Source of the DNA: Siphonodentalium dalli | Lineage: Eukaryota > Mollusca > Scaphopoda > Gadilida > Siphonodentaliidae | Direction of reading: 5' to 3' | DNA: 64,000 nt | Assembly (NCBI GenBank): GCA_032622095.1 | Contig: CP136067.1 | Location: 135,225,990 to 135,289,989, forward strand | In this document: piece by piece, positions 12,341 to 34,839 of the stretch | Layout of the letters: every line of letters starts with the position of its first letter | How positions within the stretch are numbered: the stretch's first letter is position 1 | Translations under genes and position numbers: made by a program | Notes under the pieces: generated by a model | Seen by the model: the letters and a program-made list of their open reading frames with translations, nothing else | Databases searched by the model: none | What the model was told of the DNA's origin: nothing

Positions 12341-12894
12341 GTTTCAGCTAATGTAGTACTCTAATTAACAATAAATATTCAAGATATCATTATAATGAAC
12401 GTTCTCCTTTCCTTGGTATGATTATATCTTCTAAGCACACTGGAGTCGAAGTTACAAACATAATCGCGAAGCGAAGTTTTTACCACCATTTCGCACTGAT
12501 CATTGGCGTGCATGCATGCAAGCAATGATGAAAATCTCTCTGTGTCTGTTAGATTCACGAAATCCAATCAAGTTCACGAACACCGCTAGGTATCACCCTG
12601 TCCTACTTCTGAGACTTTTTATTTGATTTATTGGGAAAATACACGATAATTTGGCTTTGATTTGGAAATGTTCCAAGGACTTATGTCGTTGTACGTTGTG
12701 ATGCGTTCGTCTCTGGCAAACATTACGGAGTTCTGGCATCATTCTCTCCATTGTTGTCGAAATAATGAAAGATTTTGTCACTTTGCTTCATGTACGCGCA
12801 TCATTATTATCACTCATGCACAACTCATATAACATCTATATCCAATCTACTATACGGCATGTCGTAATAATCTCCTCGATCAGAGCCGTTAAAT
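12341..12894. other. No gene seen
   Basis: Unique DNA. The 62-codon open frames on the - strand (12379-12567, 12593-12781) are unsupported. Confidence 0.35.
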
Positions 12895-15085
12895 TAACTC
12901 TTTGATTGCAGCCAATCCCGTTCTGAAAGCATACATTGTTTTGCTTCATTATCGTGAGGAATTTTTACATGTATGCATGAGCAGAAAATATTGCAAAGAA
13001 AATCCCCATGGATTCTAAGGTTGCTTGTTGAACTTATTATCTGTGCACGTCTAGAAATTGATGACTGCATGGGGATCTTGTAAATACCCACCCCGCGCGA
13101 CTATCCAATTATCATGGTTTAATACTCTAATGCCTGGCATGACGCTTATAAGAACGCTTATCCATGCATATTTCCGCGGTGTTTTGTGTACGTTAAGACG
13201 AATGGCGTGCGTGATCCGTATATATGTTATGGTACGTGTGTATCATTCTTTTTTGAACGATTTCTCGTGCGTCCGGTCCATTTCCAAGTTCTGACATCGT
13301 CCATTTAGCTATGTAGACATGCACGCTTACGATTGGTGCAAGATGTTTGGATTCATACGGGCATTCTGCAAGTAACTTGTTCTGCGAATGCAGCCGATAA
13401 ATCATCTCTTTGATTCGTGCCAATCCCATTCTAAAAGCATACATTGTATTGCTTCATTATCACGAGGGATGTTATAATATATGCGGGAAAATGTGCAAAG
13501 AAAATCCCCATGGATTTCCAAGGTTGTCTGTTGAACTTATTATCTGTGCACCTCTAAACAAATGGATGACTTGGGGATCTTGTAACTACCCACCCCGCGA
13601 CTATCCAATTATCATGGTTCAATACTCTAGGCATGACGATTAAGAACGCTTACCGATACATATTTCCGCGGTGTTTTGTGTATGTTAAGACGAATGGCGC
13701 ACGTGATCCGTATATATGTTATGGTACGTCTGTATCATCCTTTTTTGATCGATTTCTCGTGCGTCCGGTCCATTTCCAAGTTCTGATATCGTCCATTTAG
13801 CTATATATAGACATGCACGCTTACGATTGGTGCAAGAGGTTTGGATTCATACGGGCATTCTGCAAGTAACTTGTTCTGCGAATGCAGCCGATAAATCATC
13901 TCTTTGATTCGTGCCAATCCCGTTCTAAAAGCAAACATTGTATTGCTTCATTATCGCGAGGGATGTTATAATATATGCGGAAAATGTGCAAAGAAAATCC
14001 CCATGGATTTCCAAGGTTGTCTGTTGAACTTATTATCTGTGCACCCCTAAACAAATTGATGACTTGGGGATCTTGTAACTACCCACCCCGCGAGTATCCA
14101 TTTATCATGGTTCAATACTCTAGGCATGACAATTAAGAACGCTTACCCATGCATATTTCCGCGGTGTTTTGTGTATGTTAAGACGAATGGCGCGCGTGAT
14201 CCGTATATATGTTATGGTACGTGTGTGTATCATTCTTTTTTGAACGATTTCTCGTGCGTCCGGTCCATTTCCAAGTTCTGACATCGTCCATTTAGCTATA
14301 GACATGCACACTGACGATTGGTGCAAGAAGTTTGGATTCATATACGGCATTCTGCAAGTAACTTGTTCTGCGAATGCAGCCGATAAATTATCTTTGATTC
14401 CTGCCAATCCCGTTCTAAAAGAATACATTGTATTGCTTCATCATCGCGAGGGATGTTATAATATAAGCAGAACAAAATATGCAAAGAAAACCCAATGGAT
14501 TTCCAAGGTTGTCTGTGAACTTATTATCTGTGCACCCCTAAACAAATGGATGACTGAGGATTTTGTAACAGCCCGGTATACCCACCCGCGACTATCCAAT
14601 TATCGTGGTTTTATGTGTTCTATAGTGCCGGGTTTGACGCTTGAGATCACATACCCATGCATATTTCCGCGGTGTTTTGTGTATATGTTCAAACGAATGG
14701 CGTACGCGATACGTAAATATATATGTTATGGTAAACATCTATTCTTTTTGGATTTCTCGTGCGTCCGGTCCATTTCCAAGCTCTACCAGCGTCCTGCTGA
14801 TGACGGATGGAAGAGATTTATATTCACAGGGCATTCTGCATGTATAGCTTGTACTGCGAATGCACAGAAGACACTCTGTAGTCAGTGTAGTGACAATACT
14901 AATCTAATATATATGGTACATCTATTCTTTGTTTTATCTCATGCGTCCGGTCCATTTCCAAGCTACACCAGCGTCAATTAGCTATATATCCTTCTGATGG
15001 TGGATGCAAGATATTTGGATTCGTACGGGCATTCTAGCTTGTACTGCGTTTAATACTCTAATGCCGGGCATGACGCTTGCAAACG
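12895..15085 (+). repeat. Tandem array of about 0.5-kb units
   Basis: TCTTTGATT...GCCAATCCC begins successive units near 12898, 13406, 13901 and 14391, giving periods of about 508, 495 and 490 bp. Each unit contains AAAATCCCCATGGAT, CATATTTCCGCGGTGTTTTG, a GATCCGTATATATGTTATGGTA stretch and GTGCGTCCGGTCCATTTCCAAG. A degenerate partial continuation follows, with further CGTCCGGTCCATT words near 14943 and 15546. On the - strand units 1 and 3 share a peptide (AKWTMSELGNGPDAREIV), but the frames are short and unanchored, so it is treated as a satellite-like array rather than a gene family. Confidence 0.9.
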
Positions 15086-18800: not shown

Positions 18801-21800
18801 GGACAACTTCAGCAGTGTTTCGAAGGTTGCAAGCTATCTCATTGGACATTGGACAGATGCCTATCTGCTAAGGAGAAGACCATAATGTACGGACACGTCT
18901 TGACTTCTTCGCGGTGCTAGTCTGTGGACATGCGCCATGATAGTGGGAATGAAATGGGCCAAGTTATACACCACCCCTACACTAGGTGCATATTTCAGAT
19001 ATAGAGTGTCAAGCGTGTCGGTGTTTTTGGTGTGGTAAGATTTTATTCCTCATCCGTTTCGAAGCCGGTTTGAATCAACTTGACCGGACGTATAATGAAG
19101 GTATGCGTTGTTCTTATCCTCTCTCAGGGTTAGTGTCAGTAAGTGGGCGTATTATTAAAGAAAATGTCAGGAACTGTGGTGCATATTTGCTAAGGCGCAG
19201 AAGACCATAATGCATAATATACCCACACTATGATATGTCATACTCGCGCTGGGTGGTGGTTGGTATGGTTCAAGAAAAAAATGCCACCACAAGGGTGAAA
19301 TGTTCAACGCGAAGAACATCCAGAGGAATGGGTACACCAAGTGATTTCTTGGTAACATCACCATTCCGACCATTTCCCTCATGAGACATTAACAACTATA
19401 TTCTAAAGTTATATATATAAAGCTCTATGATCATAAAGGGCACGTTCGACCTTTGAAGGATTTCCCCATCGTTCACAACCAATGCCGTCGAGACTGTAAA
19501 TTGTTCTTTAAATGCAAAACAAATGTGAAATAAATGCAAAACAGTTCCTGACATTTTCTTGAATACTACCGCCCACACTCTGACACTAACCCTGACAGAG
19601 GATAAGAACAACGAATACCTTCATTCTATCAAGACATTATCCTTTAGCTCATCCGACTGTTCTGTGGGTGGCTAGCATAGTATTATCCAGACAAAATTAT
19701 ACGTCTGGTCAAGTTGATTCAGAACGGCTTCGAAACTGATGGAAGGTAATTACTTCACCTCAGTATTTCCAAAAGGGAATTTCAGTGATTTTTCAAAATC
19801 TGTGGGCGCAATTTTGGATTTGGGGGACTTTTATTTGGATATGTTATAGAGACAGTTCCTCGCCTCAGTGTTCCCGACTCACAATAGTAAGCATGTGTGG
19901 AATTGTGACAATAACGCTCACTTATGTTAAAATCAGCGATTTTCGGAGATTTTTCTATTTCTGGTGGCCATTTTGGCCGCCATCTTGGATTTGGGTGAAT
20001 ATTCCTCAACTCAGGTATAAGAGGAATCCTAGCTCGAGTATCTCCTGCACATATATATGCATGGGTGTTGTTATGATAGCAATAACATTCATTGATTCGA
20101 AACAGACATCGCGTTATTAGCGTCGATTCGGCTATGACCGGGTTATACCGGCATTTGGGAAAACGTGATATCGGACAAACATATCCAGCAAGGAATGTAT
20201 GTTATAGTCCCATTATGTTTGCTAATGACTCTGCCATACGGTGAATTTATAAAATCACGCCAAGATGCCTATAATTTCCCACAGAGACAAACGAAAAGTG
20301 GTGAAATGTCAGAAAAATATTTCGGCGGCCATATTGGATTTTGGTGTCGAATTTTGGGCTAATTTGTAAGGGTTTTATATTAGCATAACGAATCGAGCGG
20401 AAAACAAGACTGTATTTTGATATCATCTTTACTATAACGGCGATCAAAGAGACCTGATACATATACAAAAAATGGCCGCCATGATGGACGCCATCTTGTC
20501 TGGAGTCTCTGCGGCCACTTTTGTTTCTTGTTAACAACCGAAAAAATTTAGAGGAGACATTAAGAAAGAAAATTAGTGGGGTGAAGTTGAGTCCTGGGGG
20601 GGGGGGTTGCAGAGGTCGACCAATATTTCCTGGACTATTATCTGTTCTTTTGCTATTATAAATGGGACGATTTAAATTCGATGCATTTCTCAGTCTCAGT
20701 CTCCTGGTCTTCGCAGGTATGATGGTAACATGGAGATAGTTCTGCACCGAGAGAAACCCATACGCACGGATGTTGGAGAAATCACCACACAGAAAAGAAT
20801 ACGCCTGAGATCACTCTGCCTGTGTCAGCTCCAGGATTTCCCGTTTGACAGCCACAACTGTGCCCTTAACTTTAGCGTGTCAGAAACTTTTGGTGCCGAA
20901 TGGAATTTTACAGCACAGAAGCCTTCGTCAAGCGGGGTATCAGATCTGAGTCCATGGGCGCTTCATAACTTTTACATTTCCACGGTAACAAACGAAACGT
21001 TCTCTTATAACGTATCGGTGTCGAGGAAGCCAGGAATGCTGCATCAAACCATGGTTCTTCCCGCCGTATTATTAGCGTTTTCCATTCCATTCCTATTTCT
21101 TCTGCATCCAGAAAATAGGGACAGAATTGTGATATGTAAGTACACAGTTATGTTCTTAAGATGAGACCTTAAATTGGAATTAAGATTTCTTCTTTTGTGT
21201 TAGTATACCCAACGCTCTGTTTGGCAGTATAGGATTCTGTCAGAAATATTATAATATTTCGCAGTCAACCACAACCCGAGAAAGTCTTATCAGAAATGAT
21301 GTAATTAAGTAAAACATTGGTTCAATGAAAGGATATCAAACGTACTCATATTTTCTGACCATGCGCTTATATACATGAAAATACATGTACATGAACTTTT
21401 ATGCCAATATTCGACAATGGACCAATGACAAGATCAATCGAGCGATGTTTATAAATTATGGATATTTCGAATTCTCAAACCTCAATATTTGAGAAACAGC
21501 TCTCATCAGAAATTGAATGTCCGTTATCCACGAATTAGTTGTGTTACTATACTAACTGACTGAGACAACCATGTGTGACTAAATGGGAATTGTACACTAA
21601 ATCCGGCCATTTATAGGACCATCTCCTATTATACTCGACAGAATATATGCAATAAATGATTAGAGTTGAGCCAAGGATGAGTGCAAAATAGAAATGATGT
21701 AAACAACGTGTTAATTATAATGTAAATGAGTTATGGCTTCGAGCCATAACATAATTTTCATATTATAATTACGATGTTGTTTTACATCGTTCATGAATTA

Positions 21801-30800: not shown

Positions 30801-33800
30801 CTGTATATATTTAGGTCGGGAACATCTCATTGTGGCTGTATTTGTCAGGTATACGTGTTCCACAGTAAATTAGTATTGATACAGAATATCACCAAATGAT
30901 ATCTAAGTCGCCAGTCAATAAAATCATTAGTATATATATCCCCGCAAACGTGATATTATTGCCTGTTATTCCCGAAAATTATTTTATGCCGGCTAAAGCG
31001 GGCAGCGGTGTTGAACGTAATTTACGTCGTGCCCGCTAAAGCGGGCTGCGGTGTTGAAAGAGTTAACATACTCGGGTCGGTCTGTGTGTATATAGACCGA
31101 ATTTCATGAAACGTCTTAATATGTGAATGTGCCCATCAAGTGAAAATTTAGGTCCGACCTAGCCATTTCTGATGGAGTTTTAAACCCCCTTTCGACTTAG
31201 AATATGGTTGCCCTGATGATAACTAGAGATGTAGCTATAAAATTTAGCACAGGCAAATATGGACCCAAAAAAAGTCCACCGGGGCGGGGGGGGGGGGGCG
31301 TGTGTGTGGCCAAGAGCCATTTAATTAAAATTACAATTACTAATGCGATCTTCATACTATTTTTCAGATGGGATGTACCAACTCAGTTTGTTTCCTGGAT
31401 AGTTTCCATGTAAGGTTATACCAGCCTATAGCCATTCACGTGAAGCCCAAGAAACATGATGATCATGATCCAGAGGCAGGACACACTGACCACCATCTTG
31501 CCCATTCCAACGAGATCGTTAAGGCAAGTACATATATAGAAAACGCACCATAGCTACGCGATCGTTAAGGTACGTACATACAGACAAAATCCACCATATC
31601 AATTAAATTAGTAAGGCAAGTATAGATACATATAAAACCCACCATAGCAACGAGGTCGATAAGACAAATACACCCGGATATAACTCACCACAGAAACGGG
31701 ATCTTTGTGGCAAGTGCACATGGATATAACTCACTATAACGCGCGGATAGAACCCACCATATGAACGAGATCGGCAAGCCAAGTACGCACGGTTAGATCT
31801 CACCATAACAGCGGGATTATTAATGCTAGTACATGTACACGAATAGAACCGCCATAGCAACGATATCGCTAAGGCGAGTACACAGTACACACGGATAGAA
31901 CACACCAATAGCCACCATATCAAGGGGGTAATCATTATTGAAAGTACACACGGAAATAACTGACCCTATAGCATCGATATTGAAAAGGGAAGTACACGTG
32001 GGTAGCAGCAACGAGATCGACAAGTCGAATACAAACGGATATAACCCACCATAGCAACTAGATCGTTAGGGAGATAACCTATTATGTGGAGGAGCGAGAT
32101 CAGCAAGATAAGTACACGCATAGAATATACCATTACATTGAGATCGTTAAAGGTACTCAATCCGATCAGACGCTCCTAAATTACTATTTCTTTGGCTTCA
32201 GGTGTAAACAATATTTGATTCGAGTTGAGGAACCCCACCCTTCAAAGCTCAGAGTGATCAGATATCTATTTTTGAAGTTTGTTATTTCTCGAGATCGGCA
32301 GTAATAAGTGGCCCACCAACACGTGGTGAAAAGGGCGGTCTTGCGGATGAAGATTGTAAACTCTAAAATCAAGTGGTTATTATTACCACTTGATTTTAGA
32401 GTCATCTTTCTATCAAATATTTGTGGCGCCATCAGTCGTATTCACCAGTGGGACTATTTTAAAAACCAGGTGGTTTATTTCGTAGCACCTCAACGCACAA
32501 TGTGTATGTGGTCTTCGATATATAGTGTTTGGAGTGTAACCCATTGGTTTGATTGTCCCATCGTAGCAATGAATATCAGATCGAGGACCACAGATACTCT
32601 GGCTATTGAGTCTCGCCCAGAATAAACCACGTGGTTTATAAAATGGACTAAGCTGGTGATTGTTACTGCTATTTTTCTGTTAGAAACTTACGAATTGCAG
32701 CTCGGCAGCTGTCAACGAAGATATGTTGAGCTCTATCCGCGCTACTGGGCGTCACAACGGTCCTAGGTTTCGGGTTAATCGTATTGCGACTGTAGAGTTA
32801 AACGCTGTTCAAGTTTCGCGCCTATTGGTGACCTTTGAGCAAGATTACTCGTGTTGTGACTGCTTCGCATCACCCATACTTGACAAGAAACGTATTTTAT
32901 TTGAAAATAATACAAAAGGAATGGGGGCACACGTTTTTTCAACTTATGAAGCCCATCTCCCAATACAGTCGATTTAGATACAAAATGTTTACAAGATGAC
33001 AGCTGAACATATTTACATGCATGATTTTATTATTTTATGGTGATTGGTGTAGTGCCTTCCAGAGCATATTGCTATATGGGTTATGGCTAATTTGGTAGCA
33101 ATAACATTTGGTGGGGTTTGTGTGATTTTTGTTCGTTTAACTAATGTTGGAGCAGGGTTTTATGCAAAGGGGTATTTTCTTCATATATATATGTTAGTCA
33201 AGTGTTAGTCAGCTACTCTGGAAGACAGTACATACGGTAGATCAATGTCATAGAGAACTGGTGATTGAGTGGGGGAGTAGGTCCATAAGCGGGGAGCCAG
33301 TTGATTACTAAACTGCGTAGTTCCTATATTTACCGGTGTACTTAGACAATTTGTAGTCCTTCCTTGTGAATGTATTTTGTTTTAAATTCAGTTATCGAAA
33401 CGCTTTGTTGCTACAATATATTGCTGAATTATATCGAACCGTTTCTTATTACTTTGGGACGAGATATATGGTATTCCGAAAAGAATTTCGTTAATATTGA
33501 GAATACTTTAAGGGAGTACTCGCTTCGGTGTCGATATATCTTGTCAGTATGCTAATCTTGATATGTACAGTAGAAAGCTGTGTTGTCCTGTGACCGAGGT
33601 AATAAATGATGTAAAGTGAATTGTAATTCGACCTTGCCTAAACCTACATACAAGGCTCGTCCTGATTGGTCAATATCCTGTGTTCCCATGGAAACACGAC
33701 TGTCGTTTTGAAATGTGAAATGTGAAATGTGAAATGCTGCCAACGCCTCAAACTTTCAGAAGTCAAGCAACACGGGCATTGGTTAATGTCATGCTATAGA

Positions 33801-34442
33801 CCGAAGCAAGAGACATATAATGACTACCTACTGTACTAGACTGAAGTTTATTGTGGTCGGATATGGTGTCATGTGAGGCGAAGTGAGATCAATATTAGGC
33901 GAGGCCGTAGATAGAACAAAAACAAGTCTTAACTGAATTTTTTTTGCCAAAAAGGCAATGAAAATGGGTTCAACAGTGACGTCATGTTTGACGTTACAGT
34001 TCTAAGAGAAGAACTGTTTGGTGAAAAATCATACCACGCAGAGCTAGAAACTGGGCTATTATATAGCAGGTTGAACGTATGCCATTACAGTTTCGACAAA
34101 AACATACAGTCGAATTACAGAAACTGATTGTATGACTCCGCTTCGCATCGTCCTATACAATCAGTTTCTTTGCGTTCAAATTCTACTATATATACACGCG
34201 GATGCGCAGTGCATTTATTTCTTAATTGAAACTTTAATTCGCTGTGTAAATTGCTCGTTTATTTATTATTGAATAAATCTCATCCGCAGGCTCTGAAGGA
34301 TCAGGACACTAAACACCAGGTGGCTGTCGCCGCAGATGACATGCGCGACGAATGGCGACAGTTCACTTTGCTCATCGATAGAATACTGTTTGTTGTATTC
34401 TTTTGCATCTTTGTTGTGTACACGTACTCTCTGCTTGGATGA
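15733..34442 (+). CDS. Cys-loop ligand-gated ion channel subunit, 3' six exons (5' incomplete)
   Basis: The six exons join to 1068 nt: 355 residues and a stop. The predicted product is a subunit of a pentameric neurotransmitter-gated channel of the plasma membrane, in the nicotinic-receptor-like superfamily. Counting from the first codon at 15733, the Cys-loop is C79-C93 with 13 residues between the cysteines and the FPFD core. M1 is about 157-174, M2 about 186-207, M3 about 216-236 and M4 about 331-352, preceded by a DEW...IDR MA-helix/M4 junction. N-glycosylation sequons lie at 27, 96, 108, 137 and 143. No vicinal Cys pair occurs between the Cys-loop and M1, so it is not alpha-like for acetylcholine. 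The extracellular part is short and lacks the usual WxDxxLxW motif. The signal peptide and first strands are not located. The ligand and ion selectivity cannot be told. All phases agree and there is no internal stop, so the gene looks functional. Confidence 0.85.
15875..16959. other. Intron sequence; local duplication at 16660-16810
   Basis: CCTGG(T/A)..TTTGC.GGTAACGAG with CGAAACGTAA and GCGCTTAG occurs near 16670 and again near 16752. The second copy contains TTTGCAGGTAACG. Its first part also resembles the true acceptor region at 20700-20720 (CTCCTGGTCTTCGCAGGT). No gene is present. Confidence 0.4.
16960..20625. mobile_element. Large asymmetric inverted repeat (foldback element) in an intron
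   Basis: Bases 16965-17940 match the reverse complement of 19740-20625, and 19050-19180 match the reverse complement of 19545-19735. The outer ends share TTGGTCGACCTCTGCA. The left arm keeps about 1.1 kb (17940-19050) that the right arm lacks, and the right arm has about 70 extra bases near 19630-19690. The central spacer is about 360 bp. The arms contain spaced AAGATGGCGGCCAAAATGGC words near 17259, 17617, 17787, 17960 and 18125. Open frames within it, including 166 codons on the - strand at 20247-20747, mirror each other and have no recognisable domain. The type is unknown, and no target duplication was identified. Confidence 0.8.
20717..21135 (+). CDS. Channel gene exon B: Cys-loop and M1
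   Basis: The acceptor is CTTCGCAG and the donor GTAAGT. The exon opens with YDGNMEIV, the counterpart of the DG.V strand that precedes the Cys-loop. The Cys-loop (C-x13-C with FPFD) follows, then a segment rich in sequons, a W-x-F pair and M1, MVLPAVLLAFSIPFLFLL, with its conserved Pro. It ends at the M1-M2 linker NRDRIVI with one base of a Tyr codon. Two extra cysteines flank the Cys-loop start (CLC), which is unusual. This is the most diagnostic exon of the gene. Confidence 0.9.
21136..21611. other. Intron sequence, nothing seen
   Basis: AT-rich intronic DNA between exon B and a palindrome. Confidence 0.4.
21612..21885. repeat. Long imperfect palindrome in an intron
   Basis: The arms are about 125 bp (GACCATCTCCTATTATACTC... 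against ...GAGTATAATAGGAGGTGGTC) around a perfect core GTTATGGCTTCGAGCCATAAC (21731-21751). The arms share GATGAGTGCAAAAT. It is probably a foldback MITE. There is no coding content. Confidence 0.8.
22383..22782 (+). mobile_element. TTAA MITE family 1, copy 2
   Basis: TTAA at 22383-22386 and 22779-22782 flanks CCCTTTACCCAACA terminal repeats. Hairpins of 67 nt lie at 22537-22603 and 22685-22751. Between them is a TTTTTACCATTTTTTCTTAC-like AT-rich spacer. The body contains two adjacent GGCCAAAACC words after the left end. Near-identical copies lie at 35.7 and 36.8 kb, and 7.6 kb is inverted. It lies in the intron after exon B. Confidence 0.92.
22783..25020. other. Intron sequence with decayed repeats
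   Basis: Near 22950-23100 and again near 24890-24940 there are clusters of GGATTC/GAATCC words (degenerate inverted repeats). A stretch around 23960-24080 resembles 48000-48060 (GAGAACAATTC..ACCTA). No exon with consistent splice sites and channel similarity was found here. Confidence 0.4.
25021..25107 (+). CDS. Channel gene exon C: M2 pore helix
   Basis: The acceptor TTCTCGTTCCAG is strong, and the donor is G|GTGAAC. The peptide VIIMAILTYLLCYVRSIVG followed by DNTPVTPNL is M2 plus the start of the M2-M3 loop, whose Pro aligns with the Pro at the outer end of M2. The Glu-Lys pair that usually opens M2 is absent, the 9' Leu is not evident, and an Arg sits in the outer half. The phase (one base in, one base out) fits both neighbours. 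The open frame running on to 25178 past the donor loses all similarity and is read as intron. Confidence 0.8.
25108..26081. other. Intron sequence; tRNA-like word at about 25530
   Basis: A perfect self-complementary stretch (ACATGTATATATATATACATGT) lies at about 25205-25226. The - strand around 25525-25540 carries GGTTCGATCC, a B-box-like word, but no tRNA fold was established. No gene is present. Confidence 0.35.
26082..26440 (-). repeat. Dispersed repeat R1, copy 3 (inverted)
   Basis: It is the reverse complement of the elements at 1284 and 15090. Landmarks are CATATTATGGACTTGTTCG at the left end, TAGCATTCTACTAACATCG, GAGCAAGAGTATTCTCC and GAGTGTTTCACATCACTTTAA at the right end. Confidence 0.65.
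27209..27262. repeat. Hairpin
   Basis: ATATTATTCATTAG pairs with CTAATGAATAATAT, with an inner TAGCGC/GCGCTA pairing and a short loop. AT-rich palindrome. Confidence 0.85.
27857..27932. repeat. Hairpin
   Basis: ATCGCGACTC...CTCGTTTTCGTG pairs with CACGAAAACGAG...GAGTCGCGAT around an AT-rich loop. The stem is about 30 bp with few mismatches. Confidence 0.9.
28488..28606 (+). CDS. Channel gene exon D: M3
   Basis: The acceptor CTTTTCACTTGCAG is strong, and the donor is GTAAGT. The first two bases complete a Val codon begun in exon C. The peptide SYYATTIVIDVICMLLSIIVTQMY is M3, followed by the basic segment SRSGKRGR that starts the cytoplasmic loop. The exon ends in phase 0. The M2-M3 loop is two to three residues shorter than in typical nicotinic subunits. 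The open frame continues beyond the donor into a MITE and is not coding there. Confidence 0.82.
28658..29123 (+). mobile_element. TTAA MITE family 2, copy 1
   Basis: TTAA at 28658-28661 and 29120-29123. The left terminal repeat is AGGTACTCCATCCGATCAGA and the right end is a decayed inverse (GGATTATTCACCT). The interior shares CGGTCCCCATA, (CAA)n-type sequence, TTGATTTTTGAGTTATCC and ACAAATATCACATATC-like words with the other copies. It lies only about 50 bp after the donor of exon D. Confidence 0.75.
29124..29764. other. Intron sequence; repeat shared with 31080-31220
   Basis: CATTTCTGATGGAGTT followed by CCCCTTTCGACTT occurs near 29495 and again near 31165, with similar flanks. No exon seen. 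Confidence 0.4.
29765..29876. mobile_element. Small TTAA-bounded foldback element
   Basis: TTAATGGGTTTGTT at the left pairs with AACAAACCCATTAA at the right. The right TTAA (29873-29876) is also the left TTAA of the next element, so two TTAA elements abut. About 112 bp, non-coding. Confidence 0.6.
29873..31066. mobile_element. TTAA element family 3, piggyBac-like, non-autonomous
   Basis: TTAA at 29873-29876 and 31063-31066 flanks inverted ends CTCTTTCGCCACC and GGTGTTGAAAGAG. Inside the right end are two GCCCGCTAAAGCGGGC-type hairpin words (about 30990-31050). Subterminal hairpins of this kind and TTAA targets are known for piggyBac relatives. No transposase frame is left in the 1.2 kb. Confidence 0.6.
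31067..31367. other. Intron sequence before exon E
   Basis: Contains the second copy of the CATTTCTGATGGAGTT repeat and a G-rich tract near 31280-31300 (eleven or more consecutive G). Otherwise nothing seen. Confidence 0.4.
31368..31523 (+). CDS. Channel gene exon E: cytoplasmic loop, GC donor
   Basis: The acceptor is CTATTTTTCAG. The exon reads in phase 0 at both ends. It encodes the M3-M4 cytoplasmic loop: VRLYQPIAIHVKPKK, then a His/Asp-rich stretch (KHDDHDPEAGHTDHH) and NEIVK. The donor is AAG|GCAAGT, the consensus of the rare GC-AG introns. The only nearby GT alternatives either break the phase or bring in a stop. The exon's last dozen bases are the first unit of the minisatellite that fills the following intron start. 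Confidence 0.78.
31510..32150 (+). repeat. Degenerate minisatellite starting at the exon E/intron boundary
   Basis: About 13 degenerate units of roughly 45-50 bp share ACGAGATCGTTAAGGCAAGTAC...GATAGAACCCACCATAGC. Unit 1 includes the last bases of exon E and its splice donor. Several later units keep donor-like words, for example TTAAG|GTACGT at 31566-31575 and GTAAGG at about 31610. The last unit is interrupted at its TTAA by MITE family 2 (32147). Confidence 0.85.
32147..32440 (-). mobile_element. TTAA MITE family 2, copy 2, truncated
   Basis: TTAA at 32147-32150 is followed by AGGTACTCAATCCGATCAGA, then the family's right half in inverted order (CTAAATTACTATTTCTTTGG). A perfect hairpin lies at 32360-32402 (ACTCTAAAATCAAGTGG against its inverse). 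The other terminal repeat is missing. Confidence 0.75.
32441..34289. other. Intron sequence, little structure
   Basis: Contains a short GTGAAAT repeat at 33714-33736 and a hairpin at 34119-34169 (AGAAACTGATTGTA against TACAATCAGTTTCT). No exon between E and F is needed by the phases, and none was recognised. Confidence 0.4.
34290..34442 (+). CDS. Channel gene exon F: MA helix, M4 and stop
   Basis: The acceptor is TCATCCGCAG. The phase-0 start matches the GC donor of exon E. The peptide begins ALKDQDTKHQVAVAADDM and continues DEWRQFTLLIDRILFVVFF. The order amphipathic helix, EW, IDR, hydrophobic M4 is a hallmark of Cys-loop receptors. The protein ends three residues after the M4 helix (SLLG) at TGA 34440-34442. 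No AATAAA signal is seen in the next kilobase. Confidence 0.9.
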   Translation, partial: ALKDQDTKHQVAVAADDMRDEWRQFTLLIDRILFVVFFCIFVVYTYSLLG

Positions 34443-34564: not shown

Positions 34565-34839
34565 GCATGCATGGATACAAGCCTTGAAATAGCGTGTCTG
34601 TCATTTGCAGAATGAGGTCCACAGAGGGTGAATTTAGTGATGCTACCCGCATAGCGGGCTAGCATCACCAAATTCACCCTCTGGGAACCTCATTCGGCTG
34701 AGGTGTAAGCAGAATGGGGTCCCCACAGGGTGAATTTGGTGATGCTAGCCCGCTATGCGGGATAGCATCACTAAATTCACCCTCTGTGGACCTCATTCTG
34801 CAAATGACAGACACACTATTTCAAGGCATGCATGGATAC
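34565..34839. mobile_element. Double-hairpin palindrome flanked by 14-bp direct repeats
   Basis: GCATGCATGGATAC occurs in direct orientation at 34565-34578 and 34826-34839. Between them 34581-34827 forms one large palindrome (centre about 34704), and each half is itself a hairpin of GAGGGTGAATTTAGTGATGC and its inverse around a CCCGC.TAGCGGG core. It lies about 120 bp after the channel stop codon, so it may be in the 3' UTR. A decayed relative is at 48410-48510. Confidence 0.85.

Follow-up and report, generated by a model that had tools for sequence, protein, structure and literature searches.

Minisatellites that run across an exon-intron boundary have been described in lancelets under the name of mirages, in the globin genes BflGb6 and BflGb9 as well as in Adh3, TnC and PGBD5, and these arrays are reported neither to upset splicing nor to yield aberrant mRNAs (PMC3087553, PMC3902484). 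Another described case is the minisatellite of the human IFI6 (6-16) gene with its multiple donors (Turri et al. 1995, cited by PMC4526556 and PMC2572611); according to one of the citing accounts, two downstream repeat units serve as donors (PMC4526556). GC-AG introns, for their part, are summarized as taking part preferentially in alternative 5' site events, with ING4 as an example of a gene in which the choice lies between a GC donor and a nearby GT donor (PMC7242645). Finally, the nAChR genes of molluscs are reported to be greatly expanded, and the one-intron genes of one cluster are split at novel positions in which the authors see probable gains (PMC6896357); intron gain in this family is therefore not in itself new.

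The locus considered here lies in a window of 64,000 nucleotides (C7:135225990-135289989) taken from a genome of 2.23 Gb assembled in 9 contigs, where an array of 46-base units sits across the 3' edge of an exon of a receptor gene. This array is a further example of a boundary-spanning minisatellite, probably a harmless one, and, like the mirages, it carries splice signals in many of its units, not in all of them. The reading that we regard as probable is that its first copy, a GC donor, is the working donor and that the other copies are mostly decayed decoys. A 46-base segment comprising some 22 bases of exon E, the GC donor and the first part of the intron would have been tandemly duplicated to about 14 copies in the intron; all new copies would lie downstream of the original junction, so that the first copy would stay the donor, and the splicing of exon E to exon F would normally remove a GC-AG intron. 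The GT dinucleotide of unit 2 would have arisen later and would yield at most a minor isoform ending after ASTYIENAP, devoid of M4. We infer both that this donor is in use and that the duplication started at the exon edge.

The gene itself encodes a divergent Cys-loop receptor subunit, probably of the nicotinic type, and owes the nicotinic label to the relatives of its M4 region. Among solved chains, the ligand-binding domain (LBD) exon is nearest to the GABA-A receptor gamma-2 (E 1.1e-4) and then to an acetylcholine receptor (E 6.5e-4), and its identity to the other 34 matches is 23-33%. The peptide running from M3 through exons E and F scores 18.6 bits against the Pfam transmembrane family, under the cut-off of 28.1, and no M2 exon was identified, the two candidate pieces of the window being without a Pfam match. 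The 5' edge of exon E resembles the CAG/ATG acceptor (a slash marks the junction) of the last exon of a paralog (L003), and its 3' end reads AAC GAG ATC GTT AAG/GCAAGT, with the junction at 31523/31524. The intron that follows has the features of a GC-AG intron, that is, near-perfect flanks around its GC donor and an acceptor of the form CCGCAG/GCT. Against a profile built from 11 paralogs, exons E and F joined at 31523 reach 53.8 bits, exon F alone 49.8, a join at 31409 47.2 and a join in which exon E is seven residues shorter 49.1; exon E alone obtains no score and joining it to exon F adds just 4 bits, which makes exon E the weakest link of the gene model. The M4 exon (exon F) is intact. 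The features of the locus are collected in the table.

Table. Features of the receptor gene, its intron and the 46-base array, in window positions.
Feature	Start	End	Strand	Basis or details
Upstream exon of the receptor gene (Cys-loop, rest of ligand-binding domain, M1)	20717	21135	+	edges by eye; Pfam Neur_chan_LBD, E 1.4e-9
Exon E (cytoplasmic M3-M4 loop)	31368	31523	+	acceptor CAG/ATG, donor AAG/GCAAGT, phase 0, 52 codons
GT donor-like site within exon E, outside the array	31410	31415	+	CAT/GTAAGG, phase 0, score 3.9
Whole minisatellite, ~14 degenerate 46-base units	31502	32150	+	aligned to the unit with wrap-around
Exonic part of the array	31502	31523	+	20/22 bases as in the unit consensus
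GC donor of unit 1, proposed working donor	31524	31529	+	GCAAGT; sequence, donor matrix
In-frame TAG, met with any donor after 31523	31551	31553	+	frame reading
GT donor of unit 2	31570	31575	+	GTACGT, C-to-T from the GC consensus; sequence, consensus, donor matrix
Second perfect GC donor, unit 3	31616	31621	+	GCAAGT; donor matrix
Intron between exons E and F	31524	34289	+	position unsplit in 8/8 nearest paralogs
Interspersed repeat inside the intron	32880	33504	+	39 other scored copies, 91-95% identical
Exon F (end of MA helix, M4, stop codon)	34290	34442	+	acceptor CCGCAG/GCT at 34290, phase 0

The sequence-only reading from which this work started had placed the junction 31523/31524 in the first unit of a tandem array, and the register of the exon with the unit consensus bears this out; the array is indeed present, its extent having been understated, since it spans 31502-32150 with about 14 units. 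Tandem Repeats Finder calls only 31510-31672 (period 46), an ungapped repeat search recovers 11 copies from 31499 to 32080, and the wrap-around alignment reveals insertions or deletions in several of the ~14 units. Provided that 31523 is the true donor, the array crosses the exon-intron boundary with 22 coding bases, of which 31510-31523 are identical to the unit consensus at 14 positions out of 14. Unit 1 (31510-31555) scores 60 against this consensus, where the 12 other units range from 16 to 68 and the highest value among 11450 background windows is 24. Confronted with a unit profile from which unit 1 was left out, the exonic part of that unit obtains 3.7 bits and is outscored by three chance matches elsewhere in the window (6.4, 4.9 and 4.1 bits); the exonic stretch alone is thus not distinctive and the case depends on its register and on its contiguity with the array. 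Within unit 1, mismatches to the consensus number 0/14 in the exonic part and 8/32 in the intronic part, a contrast that is weak when taken alone (P ~0.045 at the mean unit divergence). The intronic units diverge from the consensus by ~20%, and pairwise differences among the 14 unit rows average 33% (range 16-51%). That the array might vary in copy number between individuals, as had been proposed, is weakened by these figures: such a divergence argues against it, length variation being disfavoured among units so different.

A dispersed repeat as the source of the array was considered and rejected, there being no other match in the genome: the search of the 2.2 Gb with the whole array (a DNA search that skips very common words) returned no match elsewhere, a 27-mer allowing up to 3 mismatches gave 3 matches genome-wide, all inside the window array, and an 18-mer allowing up to 1 mismatch found the window array itself as its single match, each pattern representing one form of the unit. 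The array stops at roughly the point where an interspersed repeat sets in, its matches to other places beginning at ~32170. The copies of the repeat listed further down the intron come from 40 scored candidates out of 6293 found at first look. The intron also contains a near-perfect hairpin at 32360-32402, with 21-base arms and one base between them. Just 3' of the receptor gene stop, at 34607-34798, a 103-base element showing inverted symmetry within itself is present twice, and 12884-14569 of the window is taken up by a tandem array of 3.4 copies of a 493-base unit, with 90% matches.

Other receptor loci of this genome carry arrays of their own. On C3 (~250930943), locus L061 harbours at its positions 236-1517 an acceptor-side array of more than 1.1 kb placed before an nAChR M4 exon. 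There, the acceptor and the start of the exon recur in 25 further copies that agree with them at no fewer than 16 of 23 positions, where 0.05 are expected from 200 shuffles; CAG is kept at the acceptor in 13 of the 25, and on the exon part alone five copies agree at no fewer than 13 of 17. This acceptor-side array is the mirror of the donor-side array of the window. At L004 (1647-2055), L007 (1-1514) and L010 (1586-3096), in C7:204-205 Mb, the arrays start inside the last nAChR codons and the unit includes the stop codon; these arrays have a 59-base unit (6.9 copies) or a 34-base unit (~44 copies), the latter common to L007 and L010, which are not independent of each other. Minisatellites cover 5.6% of the window, 6.9% of the repeat loci, 11.7% of the nAChR loci and 29% of a 10-kb stretch (L051), or 4.1, 4.9, 9.6 and 28.6%, respectively, when at least 3 copies are required. 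Since stop codons, located by a simple motif rule, fall inside arrays in 3 cases out of 38 against a coverage of 5.6-29%, no enrichment of arrays at stop codons is claimed; in a genome so rich in repeats, overlaps with gene boundaries are expected without any special targeting.

The position of the intron was compared with that of paralogs from the same genome. The C-terminal peptide yields 25 genome matches, two of which are the window itself, and a generic peptide 34; once four weaker matches to the generic peptide are left out, 49 distinct other loci make up the set (L003-L014, L016-L026 and L052-L081 minus the repeats L060, L068, L069 and L080). As judged by eye, the frame is continuous across the site at which the window gene is split in the eight nearest paralogs (L003-L010, C7:204-207 Mb). 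Eighteen more distant loci (L011-L014, L016, L021, L023, L024, L026, L056, L062-L064, L070, L071, L074, L076 and L079) have an open frame of at least 75 residues before the conserved W, and six (L017-L020, L022 and L067) have very long frames. Eight C3 receptors (L052-L055, L057-L059 and L061) do contain an intron, whose position, taken from the Q of the CAG acceptor and checked on DNA for L061 only, is ~4 residues before this W, against 21 in the window gene; an ancestral intron at the window position was rejected on this ground. The remaining nine loci are unclassed (L025, L065, L066, L072, L073, L075, L077, L078 and L081). Because its position is absent from all 40 classed paralogs of this one genome, the intron of the window gene is best read as a gain, though the others may have lost it. 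Of the two marks of an intron gained by tandem duplication, absence from relatives holds in 8/8 C7 paralogs, and a duplicated segment at both ends of the intron was not found, no unit being present in exon F or close to the acceptor.

As for the donors, the second repeat unit does carry GTTAAG/GTACGT with the junction at 31569/31570, as the sequence-only reading had it, and its view that the array duplicates a splice donor is supported by the donor-like sites of several units. Donors scoring at least 5.1 occur in the units starting at 31510, 31556, 31602, 31696 and 31860, and in the remaining units no donor appears at the thresholds used. The consensus of the units at the donor is AAG/GCAAGT, which makes GC the older state within the array, the GT found in unit 2 being derived. 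Outside the dinucleotide, an approximate donor matrix gives 8.5 to AAG/GCAAGT and 5.1 to AAG/GTACGT, the GC donor being ideal except for its C and the unit 2 donor having a mismatch at +4. Computed pairing with the 5' end of U1 amounts to -5.6 kcal/mol for the GC copy and -6.1 kcal/mol for the GT copy, both weaker than the donor of the M3 exon (28606; score 6.4, -9.0 kcal/mol), while the other inferred donor of the gene, at 21135, scores 3.5 and pairs at -5.1 kcal/mol. The plus strand of the 64 kb holds two GC sites that score as high as unit 1, namely units 1 and 3 of the array, and 11 GT sites as high as the unit 2 copy. The latter is thus a credible donor, its computed values falling between those of the donors inferred elsewhere in the gene, and between GC and GT the sequence favours neither decisively. 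Selection against decoy donors was considered and set aside: the donor columns are no more diverged overall (83% consensus vs 80% in the other columns), and the low value at +1/+2 (67%, tied fifth lowest of 46) rests on too few units.

Splicing at the second copy adds 46 bases and runs into an in-frame TAG, two points of the earlier reading that the sequence confirms, the frame being AAG GCA AGT ACA TAT ATA GAA AAC GCA CCA TAG. This stop sits in unit 1, which supports the further claim that second-copy use would give a subunit without M4; for the same reason, any donor after 31523 would produce an identical protein end, and extra units would add no diversity of products. Among the donors at or after 31523, only the first one keeps M4, the loss of which would probably impair subunit assembly. 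A splice at the GT donor-like site of 31409 would shorten the loop by 38 codons, with M4 and the frame to exon F retained. In the classical form of junction-dependent NMD, the limit is 50-55 nt; the distance from the stop to the junction is 16 nt with unit 2 and 62 nt with unit 3. The expectation that second-copy transcripts would be unproductive is therefore weakened insofar as it meant decay: if exon F is the last exon, decay does not follow for 31569/34290, whose stop is 16 nt upstream and inside the classical limit.

The first-copy donor is favoured by its perfect flanks, by its being the sole donor at or after 31523 to keep M4 and by its giving the best join with respect to paralogs. One may nevertheless imagine a regulated switch, in which the GC donor in unit 1 would compete with the GT donor in unit 2 and their ratio would set the amount of M4-bearing subunit, while the truncated product would be a lost subunit or act as a dominant negative. 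The two donors are both plausible by score and U1 pairing, and the propensity of GC-AG introns for alternative 5' events, the GC/GT choice of ING4 and the downstream IFI6 units said to be donors all speak for it; set against these precedents, the mismatch of the unit 2 site at +4, the identical stop reached from any later donor, with no gain in products, and the lancelet arrays, which are reported not to yield aberrant mRNAs, lead us to hold such a switch as unlikely. A switch and variability in array length may both occur, the sequence offering mild reasons against either. It is also conceivable, and in our opinion rather improbable, that the gene model is wrong and 31523 unused, either because the donor at 31409 would be taken, leaving the array wholly intronic, or because unit 2 would be used constitutively at the expense of M4, or because the gene is decaying. 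GT donors generally outcompete GC donors, CAT/GTAAGG at 31409 is in phase 0, and a gene so divergent in its LBD exon, with no M2 exon identified, leaves room for such errors; yet AAG/GCAAGT is what a GC donor ideally looks like, exon F is intact, and the join at 31523 is the best one against paralogs, ahead of both the 31409 join and exon F alone.

The origin of the intron deserves the same weighing. One may suppose that a coding minisatellite expanded in the last exon and was then spliced out, in which case the intron would have inherited its donor and its first 630 bases from coding sequence; this scenario, compatible with a first-copy GC donor in use, fits with the lack of the intron in 8/8 nearest paralogs and with the route to new introns proposed in the lancelet work (PMC3087553 / PMC3902484). 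It would also account for exon bases 31454-31501, which score 20 against the unit, a value reached by 6 of 1261 background blocks (100 positions) and 16 of 1000 codon shuffles. In local alignment, however, the exon stretch before the array is ordinary: its score of 17 is matched at the paralog locus L012 (17) and surpassed at L013 (19), and results as good come from 228 of 2000 shuffles and from 106 of 1874 background windows; the strict register 31462-31509 scores 9, as do 191 of 5000 shuffles and 136 of 11450 windows; and the unit profile does not report 31454-31501, exon F and the surroundings of the acceptor being likewise free of units. The idea that exon E holds one more complete unit was set aside, the results on it being in conflict, and we give the birth of the intron from the array little credence. 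A bolder proposal, to which we would grant only a slim chance, is that this genome repeatedly grows minisatellites from exon edges, on the donor side in the window, on the acceptor side in L061 and over the stop codons of L004, L007 and L010, and that one of them created the GC-AG intron of the window gene from coding sequence, leaving graded decoy donors behind.

If the first copy is always used, as the preferred reading of a working GC donor followed by decoys would have it, the locus would offer a natural test of how a choice is made among near-identical donors; if later copies are used, the amount of a channel subunit would be set by the repeat. Taken with the acceptor-side array of L061, the locus suggests that boundary arrays of the lancelet type occur in another animal genome, and both provide cases for the study of how new introns and splice sites arise. 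With introns gained by tandem duplication (PMC4974935, PMC2812944), the intron shares a new position and a repeat at one intron end, and differs in that its acceptor side is without a repeat. In IFI6 as in the window, a minisatellite at the end of an exon supplies several donors; there, the citing accounts describe downstream units as used and as giving isoforms, whereas here the 46-base unit is not a multiple of three and brings a stop in its first copy. ING4, as summarized in the source cited, likewise sets a weak GC donor beside a GT donor, with a choice that was demonstrated, whereas in the window gene it is only possible. Within the terms and the literature searched, no such array was found in any receptor gene. 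Lancelet genomes are unlike this one of 2.2 Gb and 9 contigs in size. Compared with the lancelet mirages, the window array stands on the donor side, with a 46-base unit and a GC donor, and its units are more diverged than those of BflGb6, given as 81-100% identical; the likeness, as the lancelet accounts describe their arrays, extends to an array spanning the boundary, to splice signals in many units, to the presence of several such genes in one genome and to a proposed link with new introns.
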